Below, piece after piece: positions 2,058 through 28,986 of a DNA stretch of 64,000 bases. Below the pieces are notes generated by a model, which had not been told where the DNA came from, did not search any database, and saw only the letters and a program-made list of their open reading frames with translations. The translations under genes were made by a program, and so were the position numbers. The DNA is from Methylophilaceae bacterium LSUCC0717 (GTDB lineage Bacteria; Pseudomonadota; Gammaproteobacteria; Burkholderiales; Methylophilaceae), in the NCBI GenBank assembly GCA_024919195.1, contig CP103436.1, forward strand, positions 310,001-374,000, written 5' to 3'. Position 1 is the first letter of the stretch. Each line of letters begins with the position of its first letter.

Positions 2058-2088
2058 AAAAATAATTTCCTTAATATCTTATGTTATT

Positions 2089-2115
2089 TTAGCACTCTAT
2101 AACTAAGAGTGCTAA
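2089..2115. promoter_or_regulatory. CIRCE operator (HrcA binding site) on the rpoH promoter
   Basis: A perfect inverted repeat: TTAGCACTC (2089-2097), a 9-base spacer, GAGTGCTAA (2107-2115). This matches the established CIRCE consensus at all 18 arm positions with the canonical N9 spacing. It lies 32-58 bases upstream of the rpoH start codon and abuts the predicted -10 element, the position expected for a repressor that blocks initiation. A complete hrcA gene is encoded at 27979-28986. Confidence 0.96.
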
Positions 2116-2143
2116 TTTTAGATAAAAGTTCACTTAAAATCAA
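2115..2143 (-). promoter_or_regulatory. Predicted sigma-70-type promoter of rpoH
   Basis: On the minus strand TTGATT (2143-2138), a 17-base spacer and TAAAAT (2120-2115) form a near-consensus vegetative promoter. The last T of the -10 is the first base of the CIRCE element, so the start of transcription would fall inside the operator. This is read from sequence only; no transcript data. Confidence 0.75.
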
Positions 2144-2147
2144 TGAT

Positions 2148-3056
2148 TTAACTATTATTTTTTACTTTTGATAGGGTGCGATTTGTAGAAAAATATGAGG
2201 CGAGCCAACCGATGACAATAGTAAGCATTATCATTGCCAAATAATGAGTGATGAGTAAATCATTAATGGAAATATTGAAGCCGAGGATAGACTCGATAAC
2301 GTAGGCATAATAGTTAAAAATAAAGATCATTAACTTGATGATCGCTATTGCGACAATTGCCCCGCCGATTCCATAAAATATTCCTGTATAAAGGAAAGGC
2401 CGTCTAATAAACGCATTTGATGCTCCAATGAGCTTGCTGACTTCTATTTCATCTTTAAATGATAAAGCTTGCAATCTGATGGTATTGCCGATAATGACAG
2501 CCAATACACTTAATAATAGGATTCCTAAAAAGTTAATAATGAGTTCACCTAAAGATAAAATGGAATTCAGTTTATTCACCCAAGCAGAGTCCAATAAAAC
2601 ATCGTCTATGATGGCAAATTCTTTCAGTTCTTTGACAAGGTAATCAATTTCATTTTCATCCAATGTTGCTAAGGATAAGTAGAAACTATCCGGTAGTGGG
2701 TTTTTTTCAATCAGGCTATCCCCATCAATCATAATTTTTTTCTGTAATTTAACCCAAGCGTCTTCTTTTTTTTCAAAGGTAATTTTACTAACAATGGGTT
2801 GCTCTTTCAGGAAGCTGGTAAACGTTTTAAGGTCATCATCTTTATACTCGTTTATTAAAAAGATGCTTATTTCCGCAGAGTATTCAATTTGTGAAGAGGC
2901 TTGCTTTATATTTTCCAAAAATAGTAGTGCAGACATCGGCAGGCAGGTTGTGATGCCAATAATGAGAAACATCACCAGACTTGCAGCCTTGGCATAAAAT
3001 AATCGGCGTAAAGCCACTTTAAATGCTTCGATGTGATTAAGCAGGTAGTTGATCAT
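2148..3056 (-). CDS. ftsX: Cell division protein FtsX (ABC transporter-like permease)
   Basis: A 302-residue inner-membrane protein with four hydrophobic segments: one near the N-terminus (SLVMFLIIGITTCLPMSALL) and three in the C-terminal half, with a periplasmic domain of roughly 120 residues between the first and second. FtsX pairs with FtsE and activates peptidoglycan hydrolysis at the septum through EnvC/NlpD-type amidase activators; a NlpD-like protein is encoded at 57000. Its start overlaps the end of ftsE by 20 bases. Confidence 0.95.
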   Translation of the reverse strand: MINYLLNHIEAFKVALRRLFYAKAASLVMFLIIGITTCLPMSALLFLENIKQASSQIEYSAEISIFLINEYKDDDLKTFTSFLKEQPIVSKITFEKKEDAWVKLQKKIMIDGDSLIEKNPLPDSFYLSLATLDENEIDYLVKELKEFAIIDDVLLDSAWVNKLNSILSLGELIINFLGILLLSVLAVIIGNTIRLQALSFKDEIEVSKLIGASNAFIRRPFLYTGIFYGIGGAIVAIAIIKLMIFIFNYYAYVIESILGFNISINDLLITHYLAMIMLTIVIGWLASYFSTNRTLSKVKNNS

Positions 3057-3717
3057 AAGGCTGTTGATTTAATTTGAGTTGTCCGTTTTCAAGATGTATA
3101 TGTTTAAAGCGCATAGGAATATTTGGTAGCTCGTGAGTTGAGATAATTACTGTAACCCCGACTTGTTGAAAGCTGAAAAAAATATTCATAATGTCGTTTG
3201 CGTAACCTTTGTCTAGGTTTCCTGTTGGCTCATCGGCAATAATAATACTCGGACGACACACAATCGCTCTTGCTATAGCCAAACGCTGTTGCTCTCCACC
3301 TGATAAAGTAATGGGCATCATTCTTTCTTTATTAAGAAGTCCCACTTTATCAAGAGCAGCCCTAATCCTTTTTTCTGCTTCCTCACCAAAGATATTGTTG
3401 ACCGCTAAGGGCAGGGCCACATTTTCATAGCAGTTGCGGTCATACAATAACTTATGATCTTGAAACACCATGCCAAACTTCTTTCTGATCCTATTGAGCG
3501 TATTATCTTTTGCTTGTGCAAGATTAAAATTTTCAAAGATGACTGTTCCTGATGATGGTTTTTCAATAGAGGATAGTACTTTTAGGAGTGTTGATTTGCC
3601 GGCACCAGAAGCTCCGGTAACAAACACTAGCTCTCCAGGAAGTATTTCAAAGCTTACATTCTGAAGCGCCTCTTGATAACCAGGATACCTTTTATATACT
3701 TGATCAAAGCGTATCAT
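3037..3717 (-). CDS. ftsE: Cell division ATP-binding protein FtsE
   Basis: A 226-residue ABC ATPase. Walker A GASGAGKS is at residues 35-42, the ABC signature LSGGEQQR and Walker B IIIADEPTGNLD follow, and a switch histidine occurs in STHE. It powers FtsX in the divisome-linked control of septal hydrolases. The start overlaps the ftsY stop by 4 bases and the end overlaps ftsX, so ftsY-ftsE-ftsX is one coupled unit. Confidence 0.96.
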   Translation of the reverse strand: MIRFDQVYKRYPGYQEALQNVSFEILPGELVFVTGASGAGKSTLLKVLSSIEKPSSGTVIFENFNLAQAKDNTLNRIRKKFGMVFQDHKLLYDRNCYENVALPLAVNNIFGEEAEKRIRAALDKVGLLNKERMMPITLSGGEQQRLAIARAIVCRPSIIIADEPTGNLDKGYANDIMNIFFSFQQVGVTVIISTHELPNIPMRFKHIHLENGQLKLNQQPYDQLPA

Positions 3718-4868
3718 TCCAGCATTCCCTCTGCATAATCTTCAGCACTAAATATTTTAAGGTCATCAATTTTCTCCCCAACACCAATAAATCTTAAGGG
3801 TATCGGCTGTTCTTTTGCTATCGCCGCAACAATTCCTCCCTTAGCTGTGCCATCAAGTTTAGTCATGATTAATCCGGTTAATGAAACAGCCTCATTGAAA
3901 ACTTTTATTTGATTGATGGCATTTTGACCTGTATTAGCATCTAAAACTAAGATGGTTTCATGTGGAGCTGTTTCGTCGAATTTCTGAATAACTTTTTTGA
4001 TTTTAGCCAGTTCATCTATGAGGTGTTTTTGAGTTGGGAGTCGACCAGCAGTATCAGCAATAACAATATCTATTCCCTTAGCTTTAGCTGATTGCATTGC
4101 ATCAAAAATAACCGCACTTGGATCTCCGGTGTCTTGAGATATTACGGTGACGTTGTTTCGATCGCCCCAAACTTGAAGTTGTTCTTTTGCTGCGGCACGG
4201 AAAGTATCACCAGCCGCAATTAGAACACTCTTACCTTCATCTAATAGTAGTTTAGTTAATTTACCAATGGTGGTCGTTTTACCAGCACCATTAACCCCTA
4301 CAACCAGAATCACGAAAGGTGTGGTTTCAATATGAATTAATGGTTTTTCTATTTGCTGCAGAAGCTCCGATAGGATTTTTTTAAGCAAATTTTTTAATTG
4401 TGCTCCATCCTCTAACTTTTCCTTTTTTACCCTGTCTTTTAATTCAGTAATAATTTGTTGCGTGGCTGCGTAACCAACATCCGCTGCAATCAAAGTCATT
4501 TCAAGTTCGTCATAAAATTCTTGATCAATTTTTTTCGTAAATGATAAAGCAGACAAATTGTCACTAATGGCATCTCTTGTTTTTTTTAGACCTTGCTTAA
4601 TTTTTTCAGCAAATGAAAGCTTTTCTTCTTTTTTAGGCGTTTCTTCTTGATCTTTTAAAGGCTTTGTTTCAATTTTTTTAGCTGGTTTTAATTGTGCTGT
4701 TTCATTTTTAGGTTTGATTTTTTTATTTGACTCTTTTTTTTCTGTTTTTGGTTTTGTAACAGTAGATTTTTTAGGCTCTGTTTTGGGCTTGGTTGTTTTT
4801 TTGACAGGTTTGGAATCAGTTTTCTTTGATTCATCACCTTTAAAAAGTTTTTTTAGGAAATCAAACAT
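3714..4868 (-). CDS. ftsY: Signal recognition particle receptor FtsY
   Basis: A 384-residue SRP receptor GTPase that docks ribosome-SRP complexes at the inner membrane. Residues 1 to about 95 form a highly charged, Lys/Glu/Thr-rich linker (A domain) after a short amphipathic start MFDFLKKLFKGDE. The NG domain follows, with the G1 loop GVNGAGKTTT at 191-200, then GDTFRAAAKEQL, DTAGR and TKLDGTAKGG. Length and motif order are normal. First gene of the minus-strand ftsY-ftsE-ftsX unit, divergent from the M16 peptidase genes. Confidence 0.97.
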   Translation of the reverse strand: MFDFLKKLFKGDESKKTDSKPVKKTTKPKTEPKKSTVTKPKTEKKESNKKIKPKNETAQLKPAKKIETKPLKDQEETPKKEEKLSFAEKIKQGLKKTRDAISDNLSALSFTKKIDQEFYDELEMTLIAADVGYAATQQIITELKDRVKKEKLEDGAQLKNLLKKILSELLQQIEKPLIHIETTPFVILVVGVNGAGKTTTIGKLTKLLLDEGKSVLIAAGDTFRAAAKEQLQVWGDRNNVTVISQDTGDPSAVIFDAMQSAKAKGIDIVIADTAGRLPTQKHLIDELAKIKKVIQKFDETAPHETILVLDANTGQNAINQIKVFNEAVSLTGLIMTKLDGTAKGGIVAAIAKEQPIPLRFIGVGEKIDDLKIFSAEDYAEGMLE

Positions 4869-9220: not shown

Positions 9221-10354
9221 TTAATCAAAAAAGTCTCTTACTTTGTCAACCCAGCTTTTTGACCTTGGGCTGTGTTTTCCACTATCAGCCTGATTTAGGT
9301 CTTCAAGTTCTCTTAAAATTTCTTTTTGTCTTTCGGTCAGTTTTACAGGAGTTTCAACGACCACATGGCATAAAAGGTCACCTGTGTAATTTTCCCGAAC
9401 AGGCTTAATACCTTTACCTTTTAGCCTAAAAGTTGCCCCTGTTTGGGTTTCTTGTGGGATTTTCATCTTTGCGTTGCCACCTAGTGTGGGAATCTCAACA
9501 TCACCACCCAAAGCTGCTACTGAAAAGCTTATTGGTAATTCGCAGTGTAAGTCAGCTCCATCTCTTTCAAAAATGGCATGCTTTTTTAATGCAACAACCA
9601 CATACAAGTCGCCAGATGGGCCGCCATTAACTCCAGCTTCACCTTCATTACTTAGACGAATTCTATCTCCCTCATCCACACCGGCTGGTATTTTTACAGA
9701 TAGCGTTTTAGATTCTTTAACTCTTCCTGAACCTGAACAATCATTGCATGGATCATTGATTACCTTTCCAGAACCCTGACATTTTGGACATGTTTGTTGT
9801 ACTGAAAAAAATCCTTGTTGCATTCTAACTTGTCCATGACCGCCGCAAGTTCCGCATGTGGACGGTTGTGTTCCTTTTTTTGCACCACTTCCTGAACATG
9901 TTTTACATTGTGACAACACAGGAATTCTAATTTTCTTTTCAGTCCCTTGTGCTGCTTCTTCAAGGGTTATTTCTAGGTTGTATCTTAAATCTGCTCCTCG
10001 ATAGACATTTGATTTTCCTGATCCTGATCGACCGCCACCAAAGATATCGCCAAAAATATCTCCGAAAGCATCCCCAAAATCTGAAAATCCGCCTTGAAAG
10101 CCACCTGGTCCTCCACCCATCGATTGATCGACGCCAGCATGACCAAATTGATCATAGGCAGATTTTTTTTGAGGGTCGCTTAAGATTTCATAGGCTTCCT
10201 TAACCTCTTTAAAGCTTTCTTCCGCTTTTGGATTATCTGGATTTCTATCTGGATGAAATTTCATTGCAAGCTTTTTAAATGCTTTTTTGATTTCATCTCC
10301 AGATGCATCTCGGTTGAGTCCAAGAATTTCGTAATAATCTCTTTTTGAAGCCAT
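9221..10354 (-). CDS. dnaJ: Chaperone protein DnaJ
   Basis: A 377-residue type I Hsp40. J-domain with HPD in [11 protein letters not shown]; a Gly/Phe-rich linker (about 70-120); four zinc-finger CxxCxGxG repeats ([32 protein letters not shown]); then the substrate-binding C-terminal domain. It delivers clients to DnaK and stimulates its ATPase. Last gene of the grpE-dnaK-dnaJ unit, separated from dnaK by 57 bases that contain a strong stem-loop. Confidence 0.98.
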
Positions 10355-10371
10355 ATTTACCTAAATATTGA

Positions 10372-10392
10372 TGGCCTGGAGTTACCAGGCCA
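10372..10392. other. Stem-loop between dnaK and dnaJ
   Basis: TGGCCTGG (10372-10379), loop AGTTA, CCAGGCCA (10385-10392): a perfect 8-bp GC-rich stem. On the minus-strand transcript it lies after the dnaK stop and just upstream of dnaJ. No T-run follows, so it is not a standard terminator. It may set RNA stability or processing so that DnaK outnumbers DnaJ; that role is an inference. Confidence 0.7.
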
Positions 10393-10411
10393 GATTGAGT
10401 CTATAAGGATA

Positions 10412-12358
10412 TTACTTATCCTCTTCTTTTTTTTCTTCGTTTACTTCTTCAAATTCAGCATCAACTACATCACCATCAACTGTTTTTTCTGAATTTGCAT
10501 CAGCAGAGTCTGCCTGTTGATTTTGACCAGATTGATTTTGCTGAGAGGCATAAACTTTTTCACCAAATTTTTGTGCTGACTCGGCCAATGCTTTTGATTT
10601 TTCTTCAATTTTGGCCTTATCATCTGATGAAATTGCCTCTTCTAAATCTTTAACAGCAGCTTCAATTTTTTCTTTTTCACCATCTTCTAATTTATCAGCA
10701 TGATCAGTCATTGATTTTTTAGTACCGTGGATTAGTGCTTCTGCAGAATTTTTTGCATCAACAAGCTCTTTGAGCTTTTTATCCTCTTCTGCATATTTCG
10801 CAGCATCTTCTTCCATTTTCTTAATTTCTTCTTCACTTAATCCACTATTAGCCTTAATGGTAATTTTATTTTCTTTACCTGTCGCCTTATCTTTTGCTGA
10901 TACATTTAATATACCGTTAGCATCAATATCAAATGTAACTTCAATTTGTGGAGTTCCTCTGGCAGCAGGTGGAATGTCTGTTAAATTAAATTGCCCAAGA
11001 CTCTTATTGCCACTCGCCATCTCTCTCTCACCTTGAAGGACATGGATAGTTACAGCACTTTGGTTATCTTCAGCAGTGGAGAAGACTTGCGAAGCCTTGG
11101 TTGGAATAGTAGTATTTTTCTTGATTAGCTTGGTACAAACACCACCTAATGTTTCAATACCTAGACTTAATGGCGTTACATCCAGCAATAGAACATCTTT
11201 AACATCTCCTTGAAGGACGCCACCCTGAACTGCAGCACCCACTGCAACAGCCTCATCGGGGTTAACATCTTTTCTTGGGTCAACATTAAAGATCGACTTA
11301 ACTTTTTCTTGCACTTTGGGCATACGAGTTTGACCACCAACAAGAATGACATCTGAAATATCTGAACTGGATAAGCCAGCATCTTGCATCGCTTGCTCAC
11401 AGGGCGCAGCAGTTCTTTCAATTAAATCTTCAACTAATGATTCAAATTTTGAACGTGTGATTTTTACAACCAAGTGTTTTGGACCGGATGCGTCTGCAGT
11501 GATGTATGGTAAGTTCACCTCAGTTTGTGAACTGCTTGATAGTTCAATTTTTGCTTTTTCGGCAGCCTCTTTAAGACGCTGTTTTGCAAGCATATCCTGG
11601 GTTAAATCTACACCGTTTTCTTTTTTAAATTCTTCAGCGAGGTAATCAATAATTCTATTGTCAAAATCTTCACCACCTAGGAATGTATCCCCGTTCGTTG
11701 AAAGAACTTCAAACTGATGTTCACCGTCTACACTTGATATTTCAATGATAGAAACATCAAAAGTTCCGCCACCAAGGTCATAAACAGCAATTTTTCTGTC
11801 ACCCTCTTGTTTGTCTAAACCAAAAGCTAGCGCAGCAGCAGTTGGTTCGTTAATTATTCGTTTGACCTCAAGACCAGCAATTCGTCCAGCATCTTTTGTC
11901 GCTTGTCTTTGACTGTCATTAAAATATGCAGGAACTGTGATAACAGCCTCTGTCACTTCTTCACCCAGATATTCTTCTGCTGTTCTTTTCATTTTTTTTA
12001 AGATTTCAGCTGAGACTTGTGGTGGAGCTACTTTTTCTCCATTAACCTCAACCCAGGCATCACCGTTATCTGCTTTGGCAATAGTGTATGGCATTAATTT
12101 AATATCTTTTTGAACCTCATCTTCTTCAAAACGTCTTCCGATAAGTCGCTTAACAGCATAAAGGGTATTTTTAGGGTTTGTCACCGCTTGACGTTTAGCA
12201 GGGGCACCTGTCAGAATTTCTCCACCATCTTGATAAGCGATAATAGAAGGCGTTGTTCTATTTCCTTCTGAGTTCTCGATTACTTTCGGCTTTCCGCTCT
12301 CCATGACTGCTACGCAAGAGTTGGTTGTTCCTAAATCAATTCCAATAATTTTTGCCAT
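10412..12358 (-). CDS. dnaK: Chaperone protein DnaK (Hsp70)
   Basis: A 648-residue Hsp70. The nucleotide-binding domain opens with [18 protein letters not shown] and contains [30 protein letters not shown] and [11 protein letters not shown]. The linker and substrate-binding domain begin around [20 protein letters not shown]-terminal helical lid and an acidic tail ending [12 protein letters not shown] complete it. Refolds and holds client proteins with DnaJ and GrpE. The 65 bases upstream, between grpE and dnaK, contain CTTGAAA but no clear matching -10, so it is probably mostly read from the grpE promoter. Confidence 0.99.
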
Positions 12359-12423
12359 TATATTTTTTCCTTCAAATATTTATTACTTATTAATGTTGAG
12401 ATGATTAATAAAATTTTCAAGTG

Positions 12424-12978
12424 TTAATCATTATTTTTAACTACTGAGACCATTGCTGGCCTAATAACTCTGTCATTCAGTTTGTAACCCTTTTGTAATA
12501 CGCTTAATACCGTGTTAGATTCTTGCTCTTTTGATTCAACCATAGACATTGCTTGATGTTCATTTGGGTCAAATTTTTCACCTATCGGATTGATTTCAAC
12601 AATATTAAATTTTTCAAAAACAGCATTGAGCTGCTTTAGTGTTAATTCAACACCATCGATTAAGATCTTGTTGTCCACATTATCAGATCCTAGTGAGGCC
12701 TCTAAACTATCTTTTACTGATAATAATTCTTGACTAAAACCTTCGATTGCAAACTTTCTAGTTTTATCAGCTTCTTCATAGCTTCTTCTTCGAATATTTT
12801 CTGCTTCAGCTTTCGCATATAAAACTTGATTCTTAAGGTCCTCAATTTGCTCTAATAAGTCATCAGATTGAGTTTCAATCTCCTGACTTTCCTTATTAGC
12901 ACTTTCCTTTGATATATTCTGATCTTCATTTTGATCAAGTTCTTCAGTGAGATTTTTTTCTTTTTTGTCGTTTGCCAT
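12424..12978 (-). CDS. grpE: Nucleotide exchange factor GrpE
   Basis: A 184-residue DnaK co-chaperone that releases ADP. The N-terminal 40 residues are charged and disordered-looking, followed by a long coiled-coil (LLEQIEDLKNQVLYAKAEAENIRRR) and a beta-domain with the conserved GEKFDPNEHQAMSMVESKE block and VLQKGYKLNDRVIRPAMVSV. First gene of the grpE-dnaK-dnaJ unit; a sigma-32-like promoter lies just upstream. Confidence 0.97.
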   Translation of the reverse strand: MANDKKEKNLTEELDQNEDQNISKESANKESQEIETQSDDLLEQIEDLKNQVLYAKAEAENIRRRSYEEADKTRKFAIEGFSQELLSVKDSLEASLGSDNVDNKILIDGVELTLKQLNAVFEKFNIVEINPIGEKFDPNEHQAMSMVESKEQESNTVLSVLQKGYKLNDRVIRPAMVSVVKNND

Positions 12979-13015: not shown

Positions 13016-13043
13016 ATATAGGTATGGAAAGGTAAATTTCAAG
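13016..13043 (-). promoter_or_regulatory. Candidate sigma-32 promoter of grpE-dnaK-dnaJ
   Basis: On the minus strand CTTGAAA (13043-13037), a 13-base spacer and ACCTATAT (13023-13016). The -35 matches the sigma-32 consensus CTTGAAA exactly and the -10 matches CCCCATNT at five of seven defined positions. The -35 overlaps the waaC stop codon. It lies about 38 bases upstream of the grpE start. RpoH is encoded at 1212-2057. Confidence 0.6.
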
Positions 13044-27978: not shown

Positions 27979-28986
27979 TTATATTTTTTTTTGGTGATTA
28001 TTTAAGCTTAGCAGTTTAGCAGTTATGTCAACAATTGGAATAACCCTTTCATAAGCCATTCTTGTTGGGCCTATGACACCCAAAGATCCAATAACCTCTC
28101 CATCTACTTCATATGGCGATGTAATAATGCTACATTCATCAAGGCCGTGATAGCCCGATTCTTCTCCAATAAAAATTTGCACCCCAGAAGAATTCTGACT
28201 TTTTTCAAGAAGATCCATGAGCGTATTTTTTTTATCAAAAATTTGAATAATTTTTTTTAGACTGCCTAAATCTTTAGCAAGCTCTTCATTATCAATCAAA
28301 TTTTCTTTACCGCTAATAAAAATATTTTCATAATTATTTGGATTGGAGTTATCCATTGCGGACTGCATCAGATCGTACATCCTTTTCTTTGTTTCATTGA
28401 TTTCTTTAGCGATCTTTTCAAATGATTCCTCAATCGTTAGTCCAGAGTAATTCTTGGTAAAGTAGTTTGAAATTTCAACCAATTCATGAGGCGAGTAATC
28501 TTTATCTACTTTAAGAATTTTATTCATTACTTGCCCATCGCTAGTAACTAAAATCGCCAAAATTTGATTGGAAGATAAATTAATAAATTCGATATGTTTA
28601 AACGTATTTTTTTTCAACTTGGGTATGAGAATCAATCCTGCATGATGAGTGAGGCTGGATAAAGTATCTGCAATAGTATTGGATACGTTTTGCATATTAT
28701 TCATTTTTTCAGAGATAAGATTTATCTCTTGCACAGTTGGATCTTTGTAAGTGAGTAAAGTATCCACAAAGTACCTGTAACCTTTTTTTGTAGGAATTCT
28801 CCCTGCAGATGTATGAGGGCTAGATATAAAACCTTGATCCTCAAGAGTTTTCATAATATTTCTTATACTTGCCGGACTTAGATCAACTTCAGCATGACTG
28901 GATAAAGTTTTAGAACCAACGGGCGCACCATCAGCAATATGCTGGCTTATTAAAACTTTTAGAAGCTGTTGTGATCTTGTATCCAT
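27979..28986 (-). CDS. hrcA: Heat-inducible transcription repressor HrcA
   Basis: A 335-residue winged-helix repressor. The DNA-binding domain reads RSQQLLKVLISQHIADGAPVGSKTL, then LSPASIRNIMKTLEDQGFISSPHTSAGRIPTKKGYRYFVDTL, the classic HrcA wing; the GAF-like dimerisation domain follows. It binds CIRCE. The only CIRCE element I found in this window is on the rpoH promoter (2089-2115). None is seen in front of hrcA itself or grpE/dnaK, so it seems not to autoregulate here. Its activity normally depends on GroEL, which is not in the window. Confidence 0.96.
   Translation of the reverse strand: MDTRSQQLLKVLISQHIADGAPVGSKTLSSHAEVDLSPASIRNIMKTLEDQGFISSPHTSAGRIPTKKGYRYFVDTLLTYKDPTVQEINLISEKMNNMQNVSNTIADTLSSLTHHAGLILIPKLKKNTFKHIEFINLSSNQILAILVTSDGQVMNKILKVDKDYSPHELVEISNYFTKNYSGLTIEESFEKIAKEINETKKRMYDLMQSAMDNSNPNNYENIFISGKENLIDNEELAKDLGSLKKIIQIFDKKNTLMDLLEKSQNSSGVQIFIGEESGYHGLDECSIITSPYEVDGEVIGSLGVIGPTRMAYERVIPIVDITAKLLSLNNHQKKI

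Follow-up and report, generated by a model that had tools for sequence, protein, structure and literature searches.

The rpoH control region

Which signals control the gene for the heat-shock sigma factor (rpoH, sigma32) when an operator of the repressor HrcA lies directly in front of it? The HrcA/CIRCE regulon comprises groESL and hrcA-grpE-dnaKJ, and a preliminary description of the DNA treated here had presented HrcA over rpoH as a departure from the usual targets. The window, that is, the whole stretch of 64,000 nucleotides that was analysed, covers bases 310001–374000 of the single-contig, 1.27-Mb genome of Methylophilaceae bacterium LSUCC0717 and has a GC content of 36%. Within it, rpoH is encoded at 1212–2057 on the minus strand (TIGR02392, 385.6 bits against a cut-off of 323.1; PRK06596); the product is 67% identical to RpoH of a named Methylophilaceae record (LD28-like). 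Upstream, on the same strand, lies ftsX (2148–3056), with ftsE (3037–3717) and then ftsY (3714–4868) beyond it, and the whole rpoH control region is contained in the 90-base interval from ftsX to rpoH.

An exact CIRCE (TTAGCACTC-N9-GAGTGCTAA) occupies 2089–2115 of this interval, 32 bases before the start of the rpoH ORF. It is the only match in the window at three or fewer mismatches, with 0.01 expected in 100 shuffles; origin as a chance repeat is ruled out by these shuffles together with the conservation of the site alongside hrcA. The repressor gene itself is located at 27979–28986 on the minus strand, adjoining hemH (TIGR00331, 320.3 bits against a cut-off of 197.2). The preliminary description had reported both the perfect operator and hrcA in the window, and had suggested a genome-wide scan and a comparison with related genomes.

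Searching the source genome at up to three mismatches returned three CIRCE matches: the exact sites at rpoH and, beyond the window limits, at groES, and one site with three mismatches (536274–536300; L003 1501–1527) inside an ABC-transporter-like ORF. None was found at hrcA, grpE, or dnaK in this search, as had been noted previously. The rpoH and groES sites (the latter at L002 1501–1527) are identical over all 27 bases, spacer included, when read in gene orientation. Such identity between the two sites also occurs in two relatives (G001 and G015), while spacer identity across genomes averages 2.7 of 9 bases. A further relative (G007) has a match with two mismatches whose sequence is similar to the ABC-transporter site of the source genome.

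Association of CIRCE at rpoH with hrcA

CIRCE was present at two or fewer mismatches in 58 of 61 genomes (the source genome and 60 relatives), with two sites in most; of the 55 rpoH upstream regions read from this sample, 53 contained CIRCE. A broader draw of 150 genomes from the order yielded 145 rpoH upstream regions (hereafter rows) from 144 genomes; five genomes were left out for want of an rpoH match over the cut-off (G042, G066, G081, G162, G163) and one for want of upstream DNA (G171), one genome contributed two rows (G083), and the order counts exclude ten family members that had belonged to the earlier sample. At up to four mismatches, 131 rows contained CIRCE. A genome with a broken, weak HrcA match (G121) was scored as lacking HrcA, and one whose HrcA is split over contigs and falls below the cut-off (G159) as encoding it. 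Under this scoring CIRCE precedes rpoH in 129 of 129 rows with HrcA and is absent from 14 of 16 rows without detected HrcA, counts that are not independent because the rows are kin; both exceptions (G088 and G180) are drafts with a completeness of 84%.

This co-occurrence of CIRCE before rpoH with hrcA throughout the order indicates that the repeat is an HrcA site, in agreement with the earlier placement of HrcA above rpoH. On this distribution, CIRCE at rpoH is a trait of the order at large, not peculiar to the source genome; with the named bacteria beyond the order described below, HrcA over rpoH is not rare. In two families, f20 (four genomes) and f41 (two), rpoH has no CIRCE and neither HrcA nor the envelope-stress sigma factor RpoE (sigmaE) was detected; as judged from gene content, this is a joint loss of both inputs.

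A putative sigmaE-type promoter overlapping CIRCE

If CIRCE is the operator, the promoter that it controls must be identified. The preliminary description had proposed TTGATT-N17-TAAAAT (2115–2143, minus strand; TTGATT at 2143–2138, TAAAAT at 2120–2115), and were this sigma70 pair the working promoter, CIRCE would lie just downstream of it and HrcA would be the sole input. Both hexamers are present and abut CIRCE, the −10 overlapping it by one base, and the pair occurs in 9 of the 25 genus members with CIRCE. Matches of this quality are nevertheless common in so AT-rich a genome: a scan of 601 bases gave six at 9 of 12 positions, where shuffles gave 3.2 ± 1.8, so that the match is weak evidence for a promoter. 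The pair is found in none of the 130 rows outside the genus, where CIRCE and the two elements discussed below are widely conserved. As a conserved promoter it is thus ruled out beyond part of the genus, and we regard it as unlikely to be the working promoter.

A different element lies upstream of CIRCE. GAACTT, a sigmaE-type −35, is found at 2126–2131 on the minus strand, 16 nt 5′ of CIRCE, preceded by T rather than G; TCTTA (2104–2108, minus strand), formed by the end of a CIRCE arm and the start of the spacer, lies 23 nt from the G of GAACTT and is the proposed −10 (TCnnA). The E. coli sigmaE consensus is GGAACTT/TCAAA, as quoted in PMC2893595, and the source genome encodes RpoE (TIGR02939, 307.9 bits, cut-off 236.15). 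Assignment of TCTTA as a −10 in this genome would follow from the spacing of rpoE promoters: upstream regions of rpoE in the same order from which the spacing was taken independently, contain GAAC[TC] followed by GTC in 22 of 29 loci; counted from the G, TC stands at +22/+23 in 21 of them and at +18 in one more. The rpoE upstream region of the source genome is itself ambiguous, with GTC at +18 and TC at +22.

The TC spacing taken from the rpoE regions was then applied to rpoH, at distances of 8–45 nt from CIRCE. A first scan, limited to 11–18 nt and to at least five of six matches to GAACTT, had recovered 83 of 122 rows, then 88 of 125 with drafts included, and the limits were widened after a second layout had come to light in Bordetella and other families. 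The wider rule, which was chosen after part of the data was known, identifies the element before rpoH in 98 of 122 RpoE-encoding rows and in 37 of 44 families. The same rule finds it at none of 29 groES CIRCE sites (30 loci fetched out of 58 matches, 29 of them with CIRCE) and in 2.2% of shuffles. Rows without RpoE lack the element in all six cases (0/6; Fisher p 1e-4); these represent three families, in two of which members with RpoE lack it as well, leaving f31 as the only real contrast. One genome with a split RpoE below the cut-off (G073) was scored as encoding it, and three drafts (G069, G158, G180) were assigned no RpoE status; two of the three (G069 and G158, RpoE below cut-off) have the element. 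Within the genus, RpoE status covers the source genome only.

The arrangement also extends to named genomes. A scan with the composite pattern GAACT-N10-14-RGCACTC-N9-GAGTGCTA matched at least 118 stretches, of which 80 were listed; among these 80, 67 lie directly before rpoH, two before groES, and one before hrcA, with eight before none of the seven query genes and two at contig ends. By record title, the rpoH-linked matches listed include Alcanivorax, Thioalkalivibrio, Dyella, Halothiobacillus, and Halieaceae, and the composite arrangement is therefore not confined to betaproteobacteria. When the phylum was scanned with the exact composite pattern, which is too strict to map the spread of the arrangement, 8 of 398 genomes matched: the source genome, three of its order, and four of its class, with no match in other classes among the 398.

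The position of CIRCE relative to the putative −35 is not constant. Where a [GA]AAC[TC] core lies 8–17 nt from CIRCE, it does so at 11 (3 rows), 13 (11 rows), 14 (1 row), 15 (54 rows), or 16 nt (25 rows), and 93 of the 94 rows have TC at +22/+23, the exception being the row at 14. In registers 15 and 16 the TC is part of the CIRCE arm; register 13 has it in spacer bases 1–2 (11/11 rows, six families), and register 11 in spacer bases 3–4 (3/3 rows, one family). A few families have the sigmaE promoter wholly upstream of CIRCE, at 27–43 nt, with its spacing kept; upstream of rpoH in Bordetella genomosp. 1, for example, GAACTC is followed by GTCGAA with TC at +22, and CIRCE comes directly after. 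Since CIRCE itself supplies the TC in registers 15 and 16, only the 11, 13, and 27–43 classes test the −10 independently. The registers differ while the −35/−10 spacing is constant, which indicates that the relative position of operator and promoter has changed. Within the genus the −35 lies one base farther away in 6 of 25 members (17 nt; TC at +24) and is absent in two of 25. Among the 67 listed rpoH matches in named genomes, TC is at +22/+23 in 60 and, with a spacing of 14, at +21 in the other seven.

GAACTT might instead be read by an activator or by an ECF sigma factor other than RpoE, or serve as an upstream element of a housekeeping promoter, which would leave HrcA control of rpoH unchanged. 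RpoE was judged by family search alone, and 24 of the 122 rows with RpoE have no such element, including all rows of f8, f9, f10, f13, f18, f39, and f51. However, the motif and its spacing match both the rpoE upstream regions of the same order and the E. coli consensus (PMC2893595), and SigE of B. bronchiseptica uses the rpoH promoter in vitro (PMC3490749). These points make a reader other than sigmaE improbable.

An extended −10 element built on CIRCE

The downstream side of CIRCE carries a second candidate promoter. The right arm together with the following AAT forms TGCTAAAAT (2086–2094, minus strand), an extended −10 with TG before the hexamer; TTAGCA in the left arm (2110–2115, minus strand) is a possible −35 partner at an 18-base spacing. 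The third base after CIRCE, which completes TGcTAnnnT, is T in 129 of 131 rpoH rows as compared with 13 of 29 groES sites, and likewise in 22 of 25 genus members and 65 of the 67 listed rpoH matches in named genomes. With the left-arm TTrGCA considered as a −35, TTnGCA-N18-TAnnnT with TG occurs outside the genus in 97 of 130 rows, as compared with 8 of 29 groES sites. Comparison of the two sets of sites thus shows that TGn-TAnnnT at rpoH is conserved beyond what CIRCE itself requires. Under a stricter AT rule the extended −10 is kept in five of six rows without RpoE, as would be expected of a housekeeping promoter.

The extended −10 also bears on a role of CIRCE mainly in RNA, as a stem-loop in the rpoH leader or a terminator rather than as a DNA operator. 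The repeat does score as terminator-like on the plus strand, yet no plus-strand gene runs into it here, and transcription from the extended −10 promoter would leave CIRCE untranscribed. A role in RNA would, moreover, not depend on HrcA, and CIRCE tracks the hrcA gene. We consider an RNA element very improbable.

Genomes without detected HrcA

Two genomes in which HrcA was not detected, which are individual cases and not a survey, show what can become of the region. In G070 (99% complete) CIRCE has decayed to five mismatches; GGAACTT, TC at +22, and TGATAAAAT are retained. Its sisters, G115 and G157, have HrcA and an exact CIRCE. In G151 (L236) a sigmaE-like element is kept, and behind it another perfect palindrome (CAGGCACT...AGTGCCTG) replaces CIRCE. 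Most other genomes listed as lacking HrcA have no such element near rpoH.

Proposed control of rpoH

This analysis establishes the CIRCE site, the conserved elements together with the distances between them, and the co-occurrence of CIRCE at rpoH and hrcA. From them we infer the use of either promoter in the source organism, the binding of HrcA, the repression of both promoters, and the logic of the circuit. The 90-base ftsX–rpoH interval would form a compact multi-input promoter in which CIRCE overlaps both a sigmaE promoter, with its −35 GAACTT upstream and its −10 TC on the CIRCE arm or spacer, and a housekeeping extended −10 promoter, whose TGcTAnnnT would consist of the right arm and three further bases. 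The operator appears to be part of the same promoter elements that it serves to block, and HrcA bound at CIRCE would exclude both holoenzymes. We think it quite probable that HrcA shuts the housekeeping and sigmaE promoters of rpoH together and so joins cytoplasmic and envelope stress.

HrcA requires the support of GroEL and, as established for HrcA elsewhere, loses activity when GroEL is drawn to unfolded protein. In the source organism, unfolded protein would accordingly draw GroEL off, HrcA would lose activity, and rpoH would be released; envelope stress would add sigmaE-driven transcription of rpoH through the same DNA. Damage inside the cell and damage to the envelope are thus probably both read at one short stretch of DNA. 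We also lean, with some reserve, toward a more general reading: across the order and in the named gammaproteobacteria, CIRCE may serve at once as HrcA operator, sigmaE −10, and housekeeping extended −10. Its having slid between registers of 11, 13, 15/16, and approximately 27–31 nt from the −35 while the promoter spacing stayed fixed would then mean that HrcA repression of sigmaE-driven rpoH transcription is under selection; full rpoH activity would require an overload of GroEL, and envelope stress would determine how high it rises.

The downstream genes suggest how such a signal would spread. The grpE, dnaK, and dnaJ cluster occupies 9221–12978. Sigma32-like promoters, each matching at 11 of 13 positions, precede grpE (12424–12978), as CTTGAAA-N13-ACCTAT at 13018–13043 on the minus strand, and dnaK (10412–12358), as CTTGAAA-N16-CAACAT at 12393–12421 on the minus strand; 40 of 2000 random 200-nt stretches (2%) reach such a match. 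No sigma32-like promoter at 10 or more of 13 positions was found before dnaJ, hrcA, or rpoH. In front of groES of the source genome, CTTGAAA-N14-CCCTAT is followed by CIRCE, and an exact CTTGAAA lies within 45 nt of CIRCE at 22 of 29 groES sites and in no rpoH row. The cascade drawn in the preliminary description, from HrcA through RpoH to grpE/dnaK/dnaJ, is plausible for grpE and dnaK with respect to these promoters but leaves out groESL, which is under CIRCE as well; with CIRCE and a sigma32-like promoter both at groESL, the circuit resembles a feed-forward loop more than a simple cascade. RpoH would drive groESL, grpE, and dnaK, HrcA would act on rpoH and directly on groESL, and the resulting coherent feed-forward loop would be closed by GroEL.

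Relation to known systems

Two parts of this proposal are already known, namely CIRCE before rpoH and sigmaE control of rpoH. The former has been in print since 2004 for Geobacter sulfurreducens (PMC545781, Table 8), with the same operator and target gene as in the source genome; there, CIRCE is also listed at hrcA-grpE-dnaKJ, where the source genome has none, and the rpoH entry names no sigmaE promoter in the part of that paper covered here. For the latter, SigE of B. bronchiseptica is reported to direct in vitro transcription from the fam (rpoH) promoter region, and a sigmaE-type promoter drives rpoH, as proposed here, both at E. coli rpoH P3 and at B. bronchiseptica fam (PMC3490749, as far as covered here). 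Neither HrcA nor CIRCE occurs in the B. bronchiseptica paper; a Bordetella species nevertheless has CIRCE directly after the sigmaE −10. HrcA is also not mentioned in PMC5343134. Within the same genomes, the groESL promoter has the same HrcA operator (all 27 bases identical in the source genome); at groES, however, CIRCE follows a sigma32-like promoter and not a sigmaE promoter as at rpoH. A 2003 study by Permina and Gelfand, the title of which reportedly spans the beta-, gamma-, and epsilonproteobacteria and both regulons, may list rpoH. Searches of open papers did not turn up the nesting of CIRCE in the sigmaE promoter of rpoH, the rule of registers, or an extended −10 formed from CIRCE, which is no proof of novelty.

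We know of no HrcA in E. coli, and the E. coli genome of our control set gave no match to it. Much of the heat control of sigma32 in E. coli acts on translation and stability; the present arrangement would, unlike E. coli, add a transcriptional gate on sigma32, and would do so in a genome of 1.27 Mb. The cytoplasmic system of HrcA and GroEL and the envelope system of sigmaE are proposed to meet on approximately 45 bases before the sigma32 gene. If this is true, two great folding-stress systems of Gram-negative bacteria converge on the gene of a third. The combination of fixed promoter spacing with a sliding operator also provides a test of selection on operator position.

Other observations on rpoH loci

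Several loci encountered in the survey depart from a single intact rpoH. Two members of family f33 (G069 and G114) have 15 matches each to the RpoH model, far above other sampled genomes. In one genus member (G029, 47% complete; L087) the rpoH match contains a stop codon, and the right arm of CIRCE is lost. The genome that contributed two rows to the order sample (G083) contains two full-length rpoH genes (L232 and L238), both of which have a CIRCE and a sigmaE-like element of their own.
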